DNA from: Candidatus Omnitrophota bacterium | Lineage (GTDB): Bacteria; Omnitrophota; Gorgyraeia; Gygaellales; Profunditerraquicolaceae | Reading direction: 5' to 3' | Assembly (NCBI GenBank): GCA_028712255.1 | Contig: JAQTQJ010000015.1 | Location: forward strand, 1 to 42,401 | Length of the DNA stretch: 42,401 nucleotides | Notes under the pieces: generated by a model | Told to the model about the DNA's origin: nothing | Database searches by the model: none | Seen by the model: only the letters and a program-made list of their open reading frames with translations | Position numbers and translations under genes: made by a program | In this document: piece by piece, positions 15,540-21,846 of the stretch | How the letters are laid out: each line of letters starts with the position of its first letter | Numbering within the stretch: position 1 is the first letter of the stretch

Positions 15540-16204
15540 ATTTCCTTAACCATAACGTTTAACCATCCCTTCACAACGCCAAGCGGCCGCATCCGGCAGA
15601 CACGCTTTCCGATTCCCGCGTTATACACCACATCCACTACCTCATTCACATATTTATAAGCCGACGGCGCTTCTTCTATGACAGTTTTTCATCCGGAGGC
15701 CTTAATTATTATACCCTTGAACCTTAATTCTTTCAATAATATATCTGCACTAGTAGAACTAGCTGAGGCAGTGCGTGATTTTAGCCTCCCTGCGCCATGA
15801 TAAGTACTGCCAAAAGTTCCCTCCATCGCTCTCTGCGTACCACCAACCAGCAAATATGAACTCCTCCTCATATCTTTCGAAATAATCACAGGTTGACCGA
15901 TCTCCCTATACCTTTACCTTTGCGGTATAACCGGATCATGCAACCCGAAAGCGCAAGTGGCACCTTTACGATGTACACAAAGTTTTTTCTCAATACCATT
16001 AACCTTATGCTCTTCGATCTTGGCGATGTTATCTGCCTTTTGTGTGATTACGATTTTATGTTTTTCTGGGAGTAAAGTTTTTTGTTTCTCTATGGAAATA
16101 TCAGTTATAGCAAGCCCTGCGCTTCTGAATAAATTATCCAGAGACGAAGCTTTAACCCTGATTCCGATATCCGCAGTATGTTCTAATACTTCGTAGTTCT
16201 TCAT
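15533..16204 (-). pseudogene. Archease-RtcB fusion remnant with in-frame stops
   Basis: The frame starts at ATG 16204 with [20 protein letters not shown], a clear archease N-terminus. After about 70 residues it switches at [15 protein letters not shown] into the C-terminal third of Rtc[13 protein letters not shown], then YREIGQPVII, SSYLLVGGTQRAMEGTFGS, TYHGAGRLKSR, EEAPSAYKYVNEVV and NAGIGKRV near the end. The C-terminal half of archease and most of RtcB are missing. Two in-frame stops, TAA at 15914-15916 and TGA at 15689-15691, interrupt the same frame, so nothing functional is made. Archease and RtcB together ligate RNA in tRNA splicing and repair. The join lies near the NIAK segment and looks like an internal deletion. 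The frame ends 7 bp inside the start of the CheB-CheR kinase gene. Confidence 0.82.
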
Positions 16205-16226
16205 CGGGTTTTTAGGTAGGATAAAA

Positions 16227-16299
16227 TGGGCCATGTAGGAGTCGAACCTACGACCTTGACATTAAGAGTGTCCTGCTCTGCCAATTGAGCTAATGGCCC
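16227..16299 (-). tRNA. tRNA-Lys(CTT)
   Basis: A 73-nt tRNA with acceptor arms GGGCCAT and ATGGCCC and discriminator A, no encoded CCA. The anticodon loop CTCTTAA gives anticodon CTT (16264-16266). D-arm GCTC...GAGC and T-arm GTAGGTTCGACTCCTAC are intact. The base pair at the top of the anticodon stem (27-43) appears mismatched (G-A). Confidence 0.93.
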
Positions 16300-16813: not shown

Positions 16814-16909
16814 CGTAATACCTCCTATAAAAACATTAAAAGATACCTGGATTTTTATGGCTTGAGTTAATATTATACAACAAATTAAAATAAAACATAT
16901 AAAATAAAT

Positions 16910-17043
16910 GCGCCTGGCTGGATCGAACCAGTCGTCGTTACCACTCCTCCCCAAAGGGCTCTGCCCCTATGGCGCTCTCCGCCTACGGCGGATCGCTGTT
17001 ACTCCAGCGGTATTTTTCTACGATCATACTAAAGAGTAGCCGA
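16910..17043 (-). repeat. Dispersed ~130-bp repeat with tRNA-like 3' end, copy A
   Basis: On the minus strand this stretch ends in CTGGTTCGATCCAGCCAGGC then GCATTT, which resembles a tRNA T-arm and 3' acceptor strand and shares AGGCGCATTT with tRNA-Arg at 21774. Upstream, it shares GCGCCATAGGGGCAGAGCCC, GGTAACGAC and GTAACAGCGA with the copy at 21602-21765. No matching 5' acceptor strand is visible, so it is not a complete tRNA. It fills the gap between the lipoprotein and DUF4340 genes. Confidence 0.55.
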
Positions 17044-17050
17044 TAAATAT

Positions 17051-18079
17051 TTACTTCTTTTTGGCTTTATCTGCTTTTGCAGAGAAATATGATTTGTCGT
17101 GATTAAGCGAATTAACGAGGGAATCCGAAACAATAAATACCTGATTTTGGGGCATAATCTTAACATAATAACAATGCTTTTCTTTTAGGTAGTTACCAAC
17201 TTCAAGCCTGATTTCTTCTGTCTTACCTCCTTTAATCAGCCTGAGCTTTAACACCGCGTAGGGTTTCTCAAAGCCATAGACGCTAAGCGCAGGATCCAGT
17301 ATGTCCTGAGAGTAAAAGGCAGCTATACTTTGCAAATACTTCTCCACCTTAGCCGAATCAAGAAGCGATTTTGGATTAACCGGCACAGAATTCCAATAAG
17401 CAGAAGGATTTTTGTCAGTTGCTTCCGTTTTTGTTAAAACCAAGGAATGCTTTCTGGAATCCGTAAATTCAATCTTATTTACGGAATTTACGTCAAAATT
17501 AAATATTTTATAATTGGCAAAATTATTTTCGTCACATTTGGCTGCCTTACCAAAAAAGCCCATGCTGTTTAAAATATTCCGGTTAGTTAACAAAATCTTC
17601 TCCGAGTTAAACTCCCGTATAAAATTCTGGTTCCCATCTGGCTTTTTAAAACTTATAACCAGATGCGTCAGGGGCTTGCCATCGGCTCCCGCTAGAATTA
17701 AATGGGCTGACTCATTATCCTGAATCTGAAAATCGTTGAATACATCCTTTGATTCAGCTCGCACTTCTCCTTTTGTATTATTCAGGTTGCCTAAGAAATT
17801 ATCCACCGCTTCTTTCCTGGCTCTTAGGCCAAACCGGCTCTCCAAAACCCATTGCCCCTCATTATTCTTGGAGATAATAACCTTATTCTTTTCGTCGCTG
17901 CCATTATAAATTATTATCTTAGAAACAGAAACATTCATATTACTATTCACTAAAGCAATTGACGGCTCTTCCCGGCTGGCCTTGACAGATTGAATTTTGT
18001 GGCAGAAACTTTTTATAATCACAAGTGCCAGCAAAAAAGAAAAAACGCCTATTATTATAAGTAGTTTTTTAAATTTCAT
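17051..18079 (-). CDS. DUF4340 domain-containing membrane-anchored protein
   Basis: A 342-residue protein with one N-terminal membrane anchor (about 5-24) and the rest predicted outside the cytoplasm. It shows the repeating DUF4340 pattern: VSKIIIYNGSDEKNKVIISK, then NEGQWVLESRFGLRARKEAV with the small-domain run VDNFLGNLNN, and a second repeat around VNKIEFTDSRKHSLVLTK. DUF4340 proteins commonly accompany GldG-type ABC transporters. Here it follows the fused permease-GldG gene by 2 bp, so it is the third gene of that operon. Its molecular role is unknown; a structural or substrate-binding partner in the envelope is inferred. Confidence 0.85.
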   Translation of the reverse strand: MKFKKLLIIIGVFSFLLALVIIKSFCHKIQSVKASREEPSIALVNSNMNVSVSKIIIYNGSDEKNKVIISKNNEGQWVLESRFGLRARKEAVDNFLGNLNNTKGEVRAESKDVFNDFQIQDNESAHLILAGADGKPLTHLVISFKKPDGNQNFIREFNSEKILLTNRNILNSMGFFGKAAKCDENNFANYKIFNFDVNSVNKIEFTDSRKHSLVLTKTEATDKNPSAYWNSVPVNPKSLLDSAKVEKYLQSIAAFYSQDILDPALSVYGFEKPYAVLKLRLIKGGKTEEIRLEVGNYLKEKHCYYVKIMPQNQVFIVSDSLVNSLNHDKSYFSAKADKAKKK

Positions 18080-18081
18080 CT

Positions 18082-20574
18082 TTATTGCGATCTCGCTGCC
18101 AGGTAAAACTGCTTCTCTTTCCTGCGTAAAAGCAGCCTTATATAAGCGTAAATCACCCAGATAATAGGAATAGCGGCTACAGCGATAAACCTGTAAAGAA
18201 CCTTCTGAGAATCAGTAAGCTTCTTGATGCTACGGTCAAAGACAGATTTAGAACGTATCTGTATAAGATCATCACTTATTGAAAAGCTATCCACAATATT
18301 CGCAAAGAGTCCCAGGTTTCCGGAACCGCTACCGATAACCTGATCGCTAAACATCTTCGAGCAACCTATAATCACAAGTTTGCCGGGCTTCGGATTTACT
18401 AAAAGCTCGGCTTTTTGCACCACCCCCCCTGCTTGCGTAGAATCGGCAATTGTCGCACCATTAAAAGTATCGCTAAACTGCCCTTGTAATATTACACCTA
18501 AAGGAAATTTTCCCGGTGAACCGGTTTTAGGAAACTCAAAGGACTCGCCCTTAATCATTCCGTTTTCATAAGGAACCAACCAACTTCTGGGGCTGGAAGT
18601 AAACAGTAACGTTTTCTTAAGATTGGCGGATTTTATTGCTTCATCGGATATGTTAAGCGATGAACCCCAAAGATAAAATAAAGCGCTTAAACGGTTCATT
18701 ACCGCGGCCTTATTATTGAATAACTGCTGACGCACAAGTATCTGGTTTGGTATTTTAATAGGCGTGGTTACGGTAAACGGCCCCATATTTTGATTACTAG
18801 AGATATTGATAATCTGGCAATCTTCATCCATAAGCATAAGGTCATTTATGCTTACGCCCCATTGCTGGATAAGCCTATTTATACTTAAATCCAGTTTCCT
18901 GGGAAAGATATCCAGGCCTTTCCCGGCGACCATCTGAAAAGAATAATCATAACCTTCCGCCGCGATCAAAACTGAACCTCCCTGATACAGGAATTTATTT
19001 ATTTCATAAAGCTGCCTATCATTCAAGCTCTCCGGGTCAAGGATCAAAAGCGTACCCACCCCCTCCGGTATAGGGCTTTCCTTGCTTAGGCTTATACGCT
19101 CATACTCATAGCCGTTATTTTTTATTAAGGACTCTAAAGATTGGAATACATCTATATACTGAGATGAGGGAACCGGCTTACCCATTGAAACAAGGGCCTT
19201 GATTATTTCAGGGCTCAATTGAGCGCCCTGTATCGGAGAGAATAGTGCAATCTTTGGTTTCTTTTCCGTAGTCAACTTTACAATTCTTGAAAGAAGCAAA
19301 TATTCCAAATCCGGAATATTCTGCGGAAGCACGCTCTGAATAACCTCTTCATTTTTATCCAGGTAGCTTATGGTAATGGCTGAGTAAACAAGCCGCACCC
19401 CGAGCGCATCCTTGTCTATGCTCTCAACCTGAAAAGGCACTATACCTTTTTCCTGGAGGGTTTGCTCAAGAGAATTTGACGGAGTTGCCCTGCCCTGGGC
19501 GTTTTGCTGCTGAGCCTCTAAAAGTTTAGCTGCCTCTATATAAAAAACCTTAAAATTAAGCTTATTTTTAGAGGCTATGCGCAATTCATCAAGTTTACCC
19601 ACAATCTCCTGTTCCAGGGTTTTAATAGCTGTAGGCATCTTATCCGCAGGAGTGATATAAAAGTTTACCTGCACAGGCGCTTTAAGACCAGCCAAAATCT
19701 TTTTGGAAGCGCCGGAAACAGTGTAAATCTTATTTTCCGTAATATCAAACCTCCCCAAAGGCAAATCATGCACCAGCCAGTTAAACAAAATTAAGCCGGC
19801 CAGGCAAATTGCCACTACTGAACCAAAAACAATGTTCGCTTTCGGCCGCAGGCGGCCTTCAAAATAAAATCCATTAAGTAAAAGAAAAACAAAGGTAGCG
19901 GTGACAAAATATAAAAAGTCTTTAACGTCAATTACGCCCCGGCTAAAACTCGCCAGGTGCCCTATTGCGCCGACGTAATTCTTCATGAAACTCCCTAACC
20001 CAGGTAGCCATCCGTCAAAAAAAGAAGCTAAAAAATCCATTCCTAATAATAAAATAAGGAAACACGACAAAGATGTTATTACAAAAGCTATGACCTGCTC
20101 CTTAGTTAACCCGGAAATAAATATTCCCATAGACATAAACAGCGCCCCCAACATTAAAACGCCCAGGTAACCGGAGATAATCGTGCCGACATCGGGTGAA
20201 CCAGAAATAAATAAAATCAGGGGAAGGCCAAAGGTGCTAACGAGTGATATAATATAAAAGGTAAGGCTGGCTAAGAATTTGCCTAAAACAAGTTCCACGG
20301 GTTTCATCGGAAAAGTCAACAAGAGCTCAAAAGTATTCTCCTTCCTGTCCTCAGCCCACAGGCGCATCGTAATAGCAGGAATAAATATTAGCAAGACATA
20401 CGGCAAGAGAACGAAAAATGAATCCATATCCGCGCGGCCGACTAAAAAGAACTGGGTCATAAACAAAGCGTTGTTAATCGCAATAAAAGCGATTAAATAA
20501 ACATAGGCTACGGCGGAATTAAAATACCCTCCGAGCTCACGCTTTAAAACCGTAATAATATTTTTTAAATTCAT
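18082..20574 (-). CDS. ABC permease fused to GldG-like auxiliary domain
   Basis: An 830-residue protein. The N-terminal part (about 1-245) is an ABC-2 permease with six hydrophobic segments and RLWAEDRKENTFELLLTFP, the usual loop of GldF-type permeases. A further helix near 255-275 leads into the GldG/ABC-auxiliary extracytoplasmic region, marked by FDITENKIYTVSGASKKIL and the VNFYITPADKMP segment. A last membrane helix lies near 795-815. It would form the membrane part of an exporter or envelope-organising ABC complex with the ATPase encoded upstream, whose stop overlaps this start by one base (TAATG). In Bacteroidetes GldF and GldG are separate proteins; here they are one chain. Confidence 0.9.
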   Translation of the reverse strand: MNLKNIITVLKRELGGYFNSAVAYVYLIAFIAINNALFMTQFFLVGRADMDSFFVLLPYVLLIFIPAITMRLWAEDRKENTFELLLTFPMKPVELVLGKFLASLTFYIISLVSTFGLPLILFISGSPDVGTIISGYLGVLMLGALFMSMGIFISGLTKEQVIAFVITSLSCFLILLLGMDFLASFFDGWLPGLGSFMKNYVGAIGHLASFSRGVIDVKDFLYFVTATFVFLLLNGFYFEGRLRPKANIVFGSVVAICLAGLILFNWLVHDLPLGRFDITENKIYTVSGASKKILAGLKAPVQVNFYITPADKMPTAIKTLEQEIVGKLDELRIASKNKLNFKVFYIEAAKLLEAQQQNAQGRATPSNSLEQTLQEKGIVPFQVESIDKDALGVRLVYSAITISYLDKNEEVIQSVLPQNIPDLEYLLLSRIVKLTTEKKPKIALFSPIQGAQLSPEIIKALVSMGKPVPSSQYIDVFQSLESLIKNNGYEYERISLSKESPIPEGVGTLLILDPESLNDRQLYEINKFLYQGGSVLIAAEGYDYSFQMVAGKGLDIFPRKLDLSINRLIQQWGVSINDLMLMDEDCQIINISSNQNMGPFTVTTPIKIPNQILVRQQLFNNKAAVMNRLSALFYLWGSSLNISDEAIKSANLKKTLLFTSSPRSWLVPYENGMIKGESFEFPKTGSPGKFPLGVILQGQFSDTFNGATIADSTQAGGVVQKAELLVNPKPGKLVIIGCSKMFSDQVIGSGSGNLGLFANIVDSFSISDDLIQIRSKSVFDRSIKKLTDSQKVLYRFIAVAAIPIIWVIYAYIRLLLRRKEKQFYLAARSQ

Positions 20575-21509
20575 TACCCTGCCCTCTTAAAAAGCCCCAA
20601 GAAAACTTCTTCTAAAGAAGGCTCTTTGAATGATAATTCACGAAGTAACCAGCCCTTCTCTTTAATAAGCGCGTTAATCGCTATTAACGCTTTATCAATA
20701 GAATGAGTTAAACACAAAAATCTCGGGCTTAAATCTATATTACCTATATAATTAACTTCCTTTAACGCGTTAATCGCCCCAAGGGCTCTTTGCGCATCTT
20801 CCTTTGAAGCCTTAAACGAAACAAATAAAAAAGATACTCCTGTTTTTTCTTTCTTTAATTCCGCAATCAGGCTGTTGGCGATTATTTTACCGTGGTCTAT
20901 AATTACCAAGCGCTCGGCGACACTTGAAACTTCCTGTAAAATGTGTGTGGAGAATATAATTGTTTTTTCGCTAGCTAAATCCTTAATAAGCTTACGCATG
21001 CTAACTATCTGCATCGGATCAAGCCCGCTAGTAGGCTCATCAAGTATAACTACTTTAGGGTCATGAATTAACGCCTGAGCAAGCCCCACCCTTTGCCTAA
21101 AACCTAAAGAGAGCTCACTAACCATATGTTTCCAGACATCCCCGATCTTGACTGCTTCCACAACCCAGCCAATTCTTTCTTTTAATTCTCTTCCAGATAA
21201 TCCGCGGCTTAAACCCACAAAATTGATGAATTCATCCACGCGCATATCCATATAAAGAGGAGGAGTTTCAGGAAGATAACCGATAATCTTTCGCACACTA
21301 AGAGGATCTTCGGTAATATCAATTCCGTTAATTTTGGCGCTGCCAGAGGTGGGGTAAAAAAAGGTGGTGAGGACGCGCATCAAGGTAGTTTTTCCTGCGC
21401 CATTTGGCCCAAGCAAACCCACAATCTCGTGTTCTTTTACCTCAAAAGAAATATCCTGCAAAGCACGGATAGGGCCATAACTCATTGAAAGATTATTTAC
21501 TTTGATCAT
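20574..21509 (-). CDS. ABC transporter ATP-binding protein, GldA-like
   Basis: A 311-residue ATPase with Walker A GPNGAGKT (34-41), a signature of the form LSLGFRQRVGLAQAL instead of LSGGQ, Walker B VVILDEPTSGLDP and a switch histidine in IFSTHILQEVS. The altered signature and the about 80-residue C-terminal domain match the GldA/ABC-2 exporter type. It powers the fused permease encoded next. It is the first gene of the operon and lies behind a near-consensus promoter at 21547-21574. Confidence 0.93.
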   Translation of the reverse strand: MIKVNNLSMSYGPIRALQDISFEVKEHEIVGLLGPNGAGKTTLMRVLTTFFYPTSGSAKINGIDITEDPLSVRKIIGYLPETPPLYMDMRVDEFINFVGLSRGLSGRELKERIGWVVEAVKIGDVWKHMVSELSLGFRQRVGLAQALIHDPKVVILDEPTSGLDPMQIVSMRKLIKDLASEKTIIFSTHILQEVSSVAERLVIIDHGKIIANSLIAELKKEKTGVSFLFVSFKASKEDAQRALGAINALKEVNYIGNIDLSPRFLCLTHSIDKALIAINALIKEKGWLLRELSFKEPSLEEVFLGLFKRAG

Positions 21510-21546
21510 CCTTTAACCCTTTTCAATAAGTATTATTAAATTTGAT

Positions 21547-21574
21547 ATTATATATATCTCTAGTACCTTGTCAA
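21547..21574 (-). promoter_or_regulatory. Promoter of the ABC/GldG/DUF4340 operon
   Basis: On the minus strand TTGACA (21569-21574) is followed after 16 bases by TATAAT (21547-21552). Both boxes are exact. The ATG of the ATPase lies about 38 bp downstream of the -10 box. Confidence 0.72.
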
Positions 21575-21601
21575 GCCCTTTATAGCTACAAGAAATTTAT
21601 T

Positions 21602-21765
21602 ACGCCTGGCTGGAATCGAACCAGTAGTCGTTACCGCTCCCCAAAAAAAAGGGGGGGGCTCTGCCCCTATGGCGCTCCCCCACCACAAAAAATTGACGGG
21701 TCGCTGTTACCCCGAATGCGCAGGGAATTTTTTCCGCACCCCTTCTGGTTCGACTGACAGTACTT
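21602..21765 (-). repeat. Dispersed repeat with tRNA-like 3' end, copy B
   Basis: On the minus strand it ends CTGGTTCGATTCCAGCCAGG then CGTA, as in copy A at 16910-17043. It shares GGTAACGAC, GGGGAGCGG, CATAGGGGCAGAGCCC and GTAACAGCGACC with that copy. An A8/G8 run (21644-21658) lies in the middle. It is positioned right after tRNA-Arg, whose own 3' end GGTTCGAGCCCACCTAGGCG is similar to the repeat end, so it may be a decayed insertion at that tRNA. Confidence 0.55.
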
Positions 21766-21773
21766 AGCTAAAA

Positions 21774-21846
21774 TGCGCCTAGGTGGGCTCGAACCACCAA
21801 TAACCAGTTCCGAAGACTGGTGCCTTATCCATTAGGCAATAGGCGC
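21774..21846 (-). tRNA. tRNA-Arg(TCG)
   Basis: A 73-nt tRNA with acceptor arms GCGCCTA and TAGGCGC and discriminator A, no encoded CCA. The anticodon stem CCAGT/ACTGG holds loop CTTCGGA, giving anticodon TCG (21811-21813). T-arm GGTGGTTCGAGCCCACC is intact. Its 5' end is one base from the stop of the radical SAM gene. Confidence 0.93.

Follow-up and report, generated by a model that had tools for sequence, protein, structure and literature searches.

The window (the whole stretch of 42,401 nucleotides that was analysed, a contig of a Candidatus Omnitrophota bacterium) carries two copies of a short element that occurs in many relatives, often behind tRNA genes. This family is best explained, with a confidence that we put a little above even, as a mobile element that is non-coding and non-autonomous; the part that moves would be a core of about 90 nucleotides, folded on the sense strand. 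The core is structured and the whole element measures about 150 bp; copies hold no gene and are too short for any. The segment directly 5' of the core, here called R', is complementary to the T-arm of the tRNA behind which the copy lies. An earlier note on the window had missed this anti-T-arm segment, the further copies and the relation to Rfam family RF02937.

Two worn copies at tRNA-Arg in the window

The two related stretches described in the earlier note were both recovered on the minus strand: in a whole-genome search copy 1 and copy 2 were 81% identical over query positions 64-133 (E 3.9e-14), and both matched the family covariance model (Table 1), with E 1.2e-10 for copy 2, which was in the training set, and E 6.9e-6 for copy 1, which was absent from it. 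The T-arm- and acceptor-like ends lacking a 5' tRNA half were likewise confirmed. A tRNA or tRNA pseudogene was ruled out, because a tRNA requires both halves, the 5' half is missing, and neither ARAGORN nor Rfam reported a tRNA at either stretch. A self-splicing intron or known ribozyme was rejected as a reading of the core, since no Rfam ribozyme or intron family matched at the cut-off in the window, nor at E up to 0.1 in loci L053 and L055-L057. A phage collection searched with copy 1 gave no match.

Both tails, as well as R' of copy 2, fit the form of tRNA-Arg(TCG) found in the two nearest relatives (GCTGGTTCGACCCCAGCCAGGCGCA; GCTGGTTCGACCCCAGCC...), whereas the window's own tRNA-Arg(TCG) now reads GGTGGTTCGAGCCCACC at that place. 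These matches indicate that copy 2 preserves an older form of its host gene; the tails, which the earlier note likened to the neighbouring tRNA-Arg, are not closest to that gene in its present form. The window copies are old, worn insertions at tRNA-Arg(TCG) that now stand on either side of the ABC-transporter operon. The suggestion of decayed integrations at tRNA-Arg was in this respect partly borne out, in that the insertion duplicated the tRNA 3' end and the copies are worn.

A 71-aa open reading frame on the plus strand (21542-21757), antisense to copy 2, consists of the tail and core in reverse, and gene finders may call it a protein. Behind tRNA-Lys(CTT), a short open reading frame on the minus strand (15914-16234) fuses an archease N-terminal part to an RtcB piece (Pfam) and looks like a broken archease/rtcB pair.

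Table 1. Positions of the element copies and associated features (window coordinates unless a locus is named)
Feature	Position	Strand	Basis
Intact tRNA-Arg(TCG), the target of copy 2	21774..21846	-	ARAGORN + Rfam
Copy 2, whole, directly after tRNA-Arg(TCG)	21601-21773	-	
Copy 2 spacer S, between R' and tRNA 3' end	21757..21773	-	sequence
Copy 2 arm R' (CAGTCGAACCAG), complement of T-arm CTGGTTCGAC in the G019/G020 form of tRNA-Arg(TCG)	21745..21756	-	sequence
Copy 2 core: AAGGGGTG, hairpin P1, GGGGTAACAG, variable hairpin P2, GCCATAGGGGCAGAGCCCC hairpin P3	21641..21745	-	covariance model, 56.0 bits
Copy 2 P4 segment, short (GGAGCGGTAACGACT)	21626..21640	-	sequence
Copy 2 duplicated tRNA tail: T-arm and acceptor 3' strand, older tRNA-Arg allele	21601..21625	-	comparison with relatives
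Copy 1, whole	16909-17024	-	
Copy 1 core, hairpin P1 mostly lost	16951..17024	-	covariance model, 33.4 bits
Copy 1 P4 segment (GGAGGAGTGGTAACGACG)	16933..16950	-	sequence
Copy 1 duplicated tRNA-Arg tail	16909..16932	-	comparison with relatives
Three-gene ABC-transporter operon, between the two direct copies	17051..21509	-	Pfam domains
ABC ATPase gene	20574-21509	-	operon
ABC2 membrane/ABC_transp_aux gene	18082-20574	-	operon
DUF4340 gene	17051-18079	-	operon
Group I intron	L003 1159-1352 (G000 contig C2)		Rfam RF00028
Group I intron	L067 2194-2484		Rfam RF00028
Group I intron	L121 1310-1567		Rfam RF00028
Group I intron	L122 1425-1691		Rfam RF00028
Second repeat type, behind Pro and Val tRNAs (G000)	L003 815-1120; L005 1674-1795; L034 1577-1690		
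Third repeat type (G000)	L020 1937-2035; L034 1690-1760		

Spread of the family and its relation to RF02937

The further search of the genome that the earlier note had proposed yielded three more copies besides the window pair in the source genome (G000; 1.7 Mb, 37 contigs), behind tRNA-Thr(TGT), tRNA-Met(CAT) and a tRNA-like sequence that is split and has a group I intron; each of these copies follows its tRNA and closes with that tRNA's own 3' part. When 58 relatives were searched, 40 gave matches, many of them to the tRNA-Met tail of the query alone, and a core-only model was therefore built from 19 sequences. This model matched 60 of 128 genomes of the order at E <= 1e-4 and 67 of 384 genomes drawn from the phylum at E <= 1e-6; the element is thus not the two-member one first described. 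Nine loci were fetched from outside the order: five show R' to their own tRNA and a second tail (for Trp, Met, Asp and Gln, besides a tRNA-like tail missed by ARAGORN), in two the element is found upstream of a tRNA, and the remaining two, at tRNA-free sites, have palindromes ahead of the core. Among viral contigs, no stretch had the tRNA-type core pattern and four had the RF02937-type pattern.

RF02937 is the Clostridiales-2 RNA, entered in its Rfam line as an sRNA, without function or mobility. It shares with the Omnitrophota cores a layout of AAAGGGGGTG, a GC hairpin, CG..UU..GGGU and a second hairpin; it differs in the second half, GGGGTAACAG..GCCATAGGGGC. The TIR-type cores L160, L164, L171 and L174 align to positions 1-82 of the 82 in the RF02937 model, including both hairpins (L160 with 49.7 bits), and tRNA-linked cores align weakly, at about 18-29 bits. 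The cut-off of 58.6 bits was reached in none of the 384 phylum genomes, the best score being 55.8 bits. Judged from sequence, the core is a divergent relative of RF02937 that falls below its cut-off. Among the papers covered by literature searches, none on the element or on RF02937 was found.

Insertion sites and the duplicated tail

A subset of the core-model matches in the order, comprising 106 distinct copies, was examined. In 64 of these, the core lies 11-126 nt behind a complete sense tRNA, with 19 anticodon labels represented, against a chance expectation of about 0.2 in 106 that was estimated from 42 tRNA matches in 1.7 Mb. By simple rules, the other copies comprise four behind the 3' end of a 5S rRNA, two antisense at the 5' part of 5S (L129, L132), 17 in elements with their own inverted ends, and 19 unclassified copies, which include some with the tRNA cut off or unrecognised, tandem repeats and copies upstream of tRNAs. 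Misfits such as these 19 count against a mobile element as the explanation.

The sequence after the core was compared with all tRNA tails in the set, and of 61 copies 50 matched their own tRNA best, while one gave a tie; among the exceptions are copies with another tRNA inside the scored 140 nt, those upstream of tRNAs, and the window copy. The duplication spans about 30-45 bp, beginning in the variable loop or T-arm and reaching the tRNA 3' end, sometimes a few nucleotides beyond. Because the 3' part of the target stands on both sides of the element, the tRNA upstream stays whole. In the spacer between tRNA-Met and tRNA-Val, seven relatives have an empty site in which the tail leads directly into the spacer, and in occupied relatives the second tail leads into a short, native-like spacer before tRNA-Val. 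Parsing of this tail was correct in three of the eight occupied loci (G022, G008 and G044) and wrong in G012; the tail was left unparsed and judged by eye in the other four, and the decayed G011 was also parsed. Rather than being fixed within the family, the tail is made anew from each target. The alternative offered in the earlier note, a small RNA family that borrows a tRNA 3' end, therefore stands as regards a structured, RNA-like family, but not as regards a set tail.

The T-loop of the second tail often has a small hairpin or an extra base (L068, L073, L077, L104, L120, L131, L133, L361, L366), as if it were disabled or open to nested insertions. Copies upstream of a tRNA (L083, L122, L124, L147, L148, L156, L159 at G000 C3:57581-57678, L186 and L358) have their own left hairpin, and in several of them a right part of about 110 nt is conserved; both flanks of L148 carry AGGCACCAGCGAACGAC. 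Cores are repeated closely, up to three times, behind one tRNA or neighbouring tRNAs in L125, L120, L142 and L111.

The arm R' follows the target tRNA

Over 64 copies, the pairing of R' with its own tRNA scored 9.28 compared to 6.20 after permutation (0/2000 permutations reached the observed value), and within isotypes (n = 50) 9.50 compared to 8.24 (0/5000), figures that are not independent tests because the copies are related. As controls, the 24 nt before R' scored 3.8 (n = 12) and shuffled R' scored 4.4. These permutation tests are the fair version of an earlier count of 219/225, which was biased in that segments had been picked to fit their own tail. A plainer test, in which the own R' score had to exceed that of every other isotype, succeeded in only 29 of 64 copies, since all T-arms share GGTTC. 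R' changes together with the target tRNA between species. When the working tRNA and the second tail were compared as partners of R' (n = 57), the working tRNA was better in 31 copies, equal in 25 and worse in one, window copy 2; a closing stem formed chiefly between R' and the second tail was accordingly rejected.

A scan of named genomes with the second half of RF02937 returned at least 80 loci, some of whose high-GC matches look like chance; among the loci listed are many Clostridia (Dethiobacter, Sedimentibacter, Geosporobacter, Anaerosolibacter), Omnitrophota and Methylomirabilis. Copies occur in the isolates Geosporobacter ferrireducens, Sedimentibacter saalensis and Anaerosolibacter carboniphilus. 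In Clostridia, a palindrome has the T-run of the host gene's terminator as its left arm, and its right arm, R', is complementary to this and abuts the core, for example CCGTTTTTAATATAC..GTATATTAAAAACGG (L230) and TTTTTTCATATAA..TTATATGAAAAAA (L242), in a list of 26 entries of which a few (L195, L201, L202, L247) are not the left hairpin. Counted outward from the inner hairpin, the arm match averaged 7.3 for the own flank and 1.9 for other flanks over 20 rows, five of which were misparsed (L211, L216, L241, L246, L258). The rule is thus obeyed in another phylum and at another kind of target.

The folding strand

The 102 mismatches counted over 60 T-arm/R' duplexes include 63 of G.A or A.G and four of the mirror types C.T/T.C; tandem G.A occurred in 18 of the 60. 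Binomial figures on these mismatches assume independent copies, although the copies are related. In the core (69 sequences), 98.2% of cells were paired compared to 95.2% in shuffles, and the covariance model and test for compensatory change proposed in the earlier note gave six pairs with two-sided changes compared to 1.9 in shuffles, with G.U pairs at the base of P1; further pair types in the 69 sequences did not exceed shuffles. With core pairing above shuffles and matches in 60 of 128 genomes, the outcome that would have spoken against the note's reading, two copies of unconserved structure, is not what was found. The predominance of G.A mismatches, together with the G.U pairs and two-sided changes of the core stems, shows the sense (tRNA) strand, as RNA or single-stranded DNA, to be the one that folds. 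Pure quasi-palindrome correction was rejected, as it fails to explain GA opposite GA.

That G.A pairs recur and that R' keeps in step with the tRNA suggests that the R'/T-arm helix is maintained for its role in RNA. Both would also fit a mostly inherited, cis-acting RNA that regulates or processes the tRNA, in which R' opens the T-arm in a read-through precursor and the second tail serves as an alternative 3' half. For such an RNA speak the G.A and G.U pairs, which are typical of RNA, the way in which, within isotypes, R' varies along with the working tRNA and prefers it to the second tail, and the presence of the element at identical Lys and Met loci across several families; its patchy presence, the decayed copies (L074 and both window copies), the copies located at terminators, 5S genes or sites of the TIR type, and near-identical cores with unrelated flanks in a single genome (G121) make it unlikely.

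Movement and inheritance

In G121, copies stand behind tRNA-Lys and tRNA-Gly with cores that are 95% identical, each with R' and the tail of its own tRNA. In 15-nt windows, the identity of the two is 0.80-1.0 over the core of about 90 nt and 0.07-0.40 on either side. Near-identical cores with unrelated, target-matched flanks indicate that the core moves and that the target supplies the arms. In G082, the cores at Val-GAC and Val-CAC are identical, but each is located at the end of a contig, so that the pair may reflect assembly overlap and was left out of the evidence. Among 72 copies, the nearest neighbour belonged to another genus and another target in 33 and to the same target within the genus in 13. 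The Lys-Leu-Gly cluster and the Met-Val pair are orthologous loci that carry the element in several families, and part of the pattern is therefore attributed to old inheritance. The nearest-neighbour pattern is a mix of movement and inheritance.

Possible mechanisms and known systems

A target duplication and an inverted copy of the target flank a foreign core, which suggests strand switching at a hairpin. The likeliest mechanism, though we hold it only tentatively, is that a strand-switching reaction, perhaps by an enzyme supplied in trans, copies the core into gene ends that bear a hairpin. The growing strand would leave the target, snap back and copy the arm of the target's hairpin, giving R'; it would then copy the core and return to the start of the target, giving the second tail. 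After insertion, the R'/T-arm helix might be kept by selection on read-through RNA or renewed by copying. Snap-back predicts exact complementarity, however, and the recurring tandem G.A mismatches count against it unless later selection or another process is invoked.

A transposase, integrase or other partner enzyme for the element was not found. Movement in trans by a hairpin-reading host transposase (e.g., a Y1/REP-associated tyrosine transposase), with R' and the duplication as by-products, draws on the presence of Y1_Tnp in 103 of 125 order genomes and on its being most numerous in G039 (12) and G048 (11), which hold the most TIR-type copies. No core lies within flanks of about 1 kb of 12 Y1 genes (G000, G039, G048, G049), however, G061 (7 copies), G107 and G108 have no Y1 match, and we know of no Y1 enzyme that makes target duplications of about 30 bp, so we regard this as an improbable alternative to strand switching. 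Target-primed reverse transcription of core RNA would account for the target duplication and for insertion at RNA 3' ends, both of which fit retroelement logic, but no RVT_1 match is present in the source genome, such matches are confined to 20 of 125 order genomes, and the insertions at the 5' part of 5S are antisense; it is accordingly considered highly improbable.

REP/BIME/REPIN palindromes with RAYT transposases, as described in PMC3733652, are likewise short, palindromic, non-coding, multi-copy and intergenic, but the present element has a longer structured core, a target duplication and a target-matched arm; copies flanking a Y1 transposase gene, the mark of REP/RAYT systems, were not seen around the 12 Y1 genes. 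The mitochondrial double-hairpin or repetitive hairpin elements described in PMC2800124 are also potentially mobile hairpins near or in RNA genes, and differ, as presented there, in being organellar, simpler and without a target-complementary arm; the reference list of that paper names palindromes flanking Neurospora mitochondrial tRNA genes. A MITE would have fixed terminal inverted repeats and a short target duplication; ends of this kind were seen in the TIR-type copies of G039 and G048 and not in tRNA-linked copies.

It is conceivable, if doubtful, that a protein-free or host-serviced mobile RNA gene writes the antisense arm of its target's hairpin, so that a bespoke anti-T-arm or anti-terminator would evolve with the tRNA as a guide or switch. 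If the mobile-element explanation is right, a tiny non-coding element could live at tRNA genes harmlessly, the unexplained family RF02937 would gain a behaviour, and the anti-T-arm segment would predict a measurable RNA interaction with tRNA precursors; the rule that the core moves and both arms are remade from the target would be testable in culturable multi-copy Clostridia.

The operon between the window copies

The DUF4340 gene of the operon occurs in two of 26 genomes of the genus, in G013 at a different place, and in G015 and G020 tRNA-Lys comes immediately after tRNA-Arg; the stretch bracketed by the copies was therefore probably gained at tRNA-Arg. These observations, and the position of the operon between two direct copies that each have a tRNA-Arg tail, would also suit the remnant of an integrase-mediated island, with the tails as att sites and the operon as cargo. 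tRNA-targeted integrative elements with tyrosine integrases insert at the T-arm or 3' end and leave a second copy of the tRNA tail, and a direct repeat of the tRNA 3' end that restores the gene was found here as well. No integrase gene was found between the window copies or in the element, however, the same core occurs cargo-free with other tRNA tails at many tRNAs, and we know of no islands with target-specific anti-T-arm segments, which leaves an island remnant very unlikely. The element further departs from tyrosine-integrase elements in its size of about 150 bp, in the use of one core at 19 anticodon types and in its per-target tails.

Other repeats and introns near tRNA genes

Group I introns (Rfam RF00028, 68-103 bits) were observed near or splitting tRNA-like sequences (Table 1), and those in L003 and L067 look like interrupted tRNAs. 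A second repeat type, a double hairpin of TCCGCC..GGCGGA and GGGCGCC..GGCGCCC, lies at the junction of the D-arm and anticodon arm in partial tRNA copies. A third type, also a double hairpin, is inserted in the T-loop where partial tRNA copies follow Trp and Pro tRNAs.
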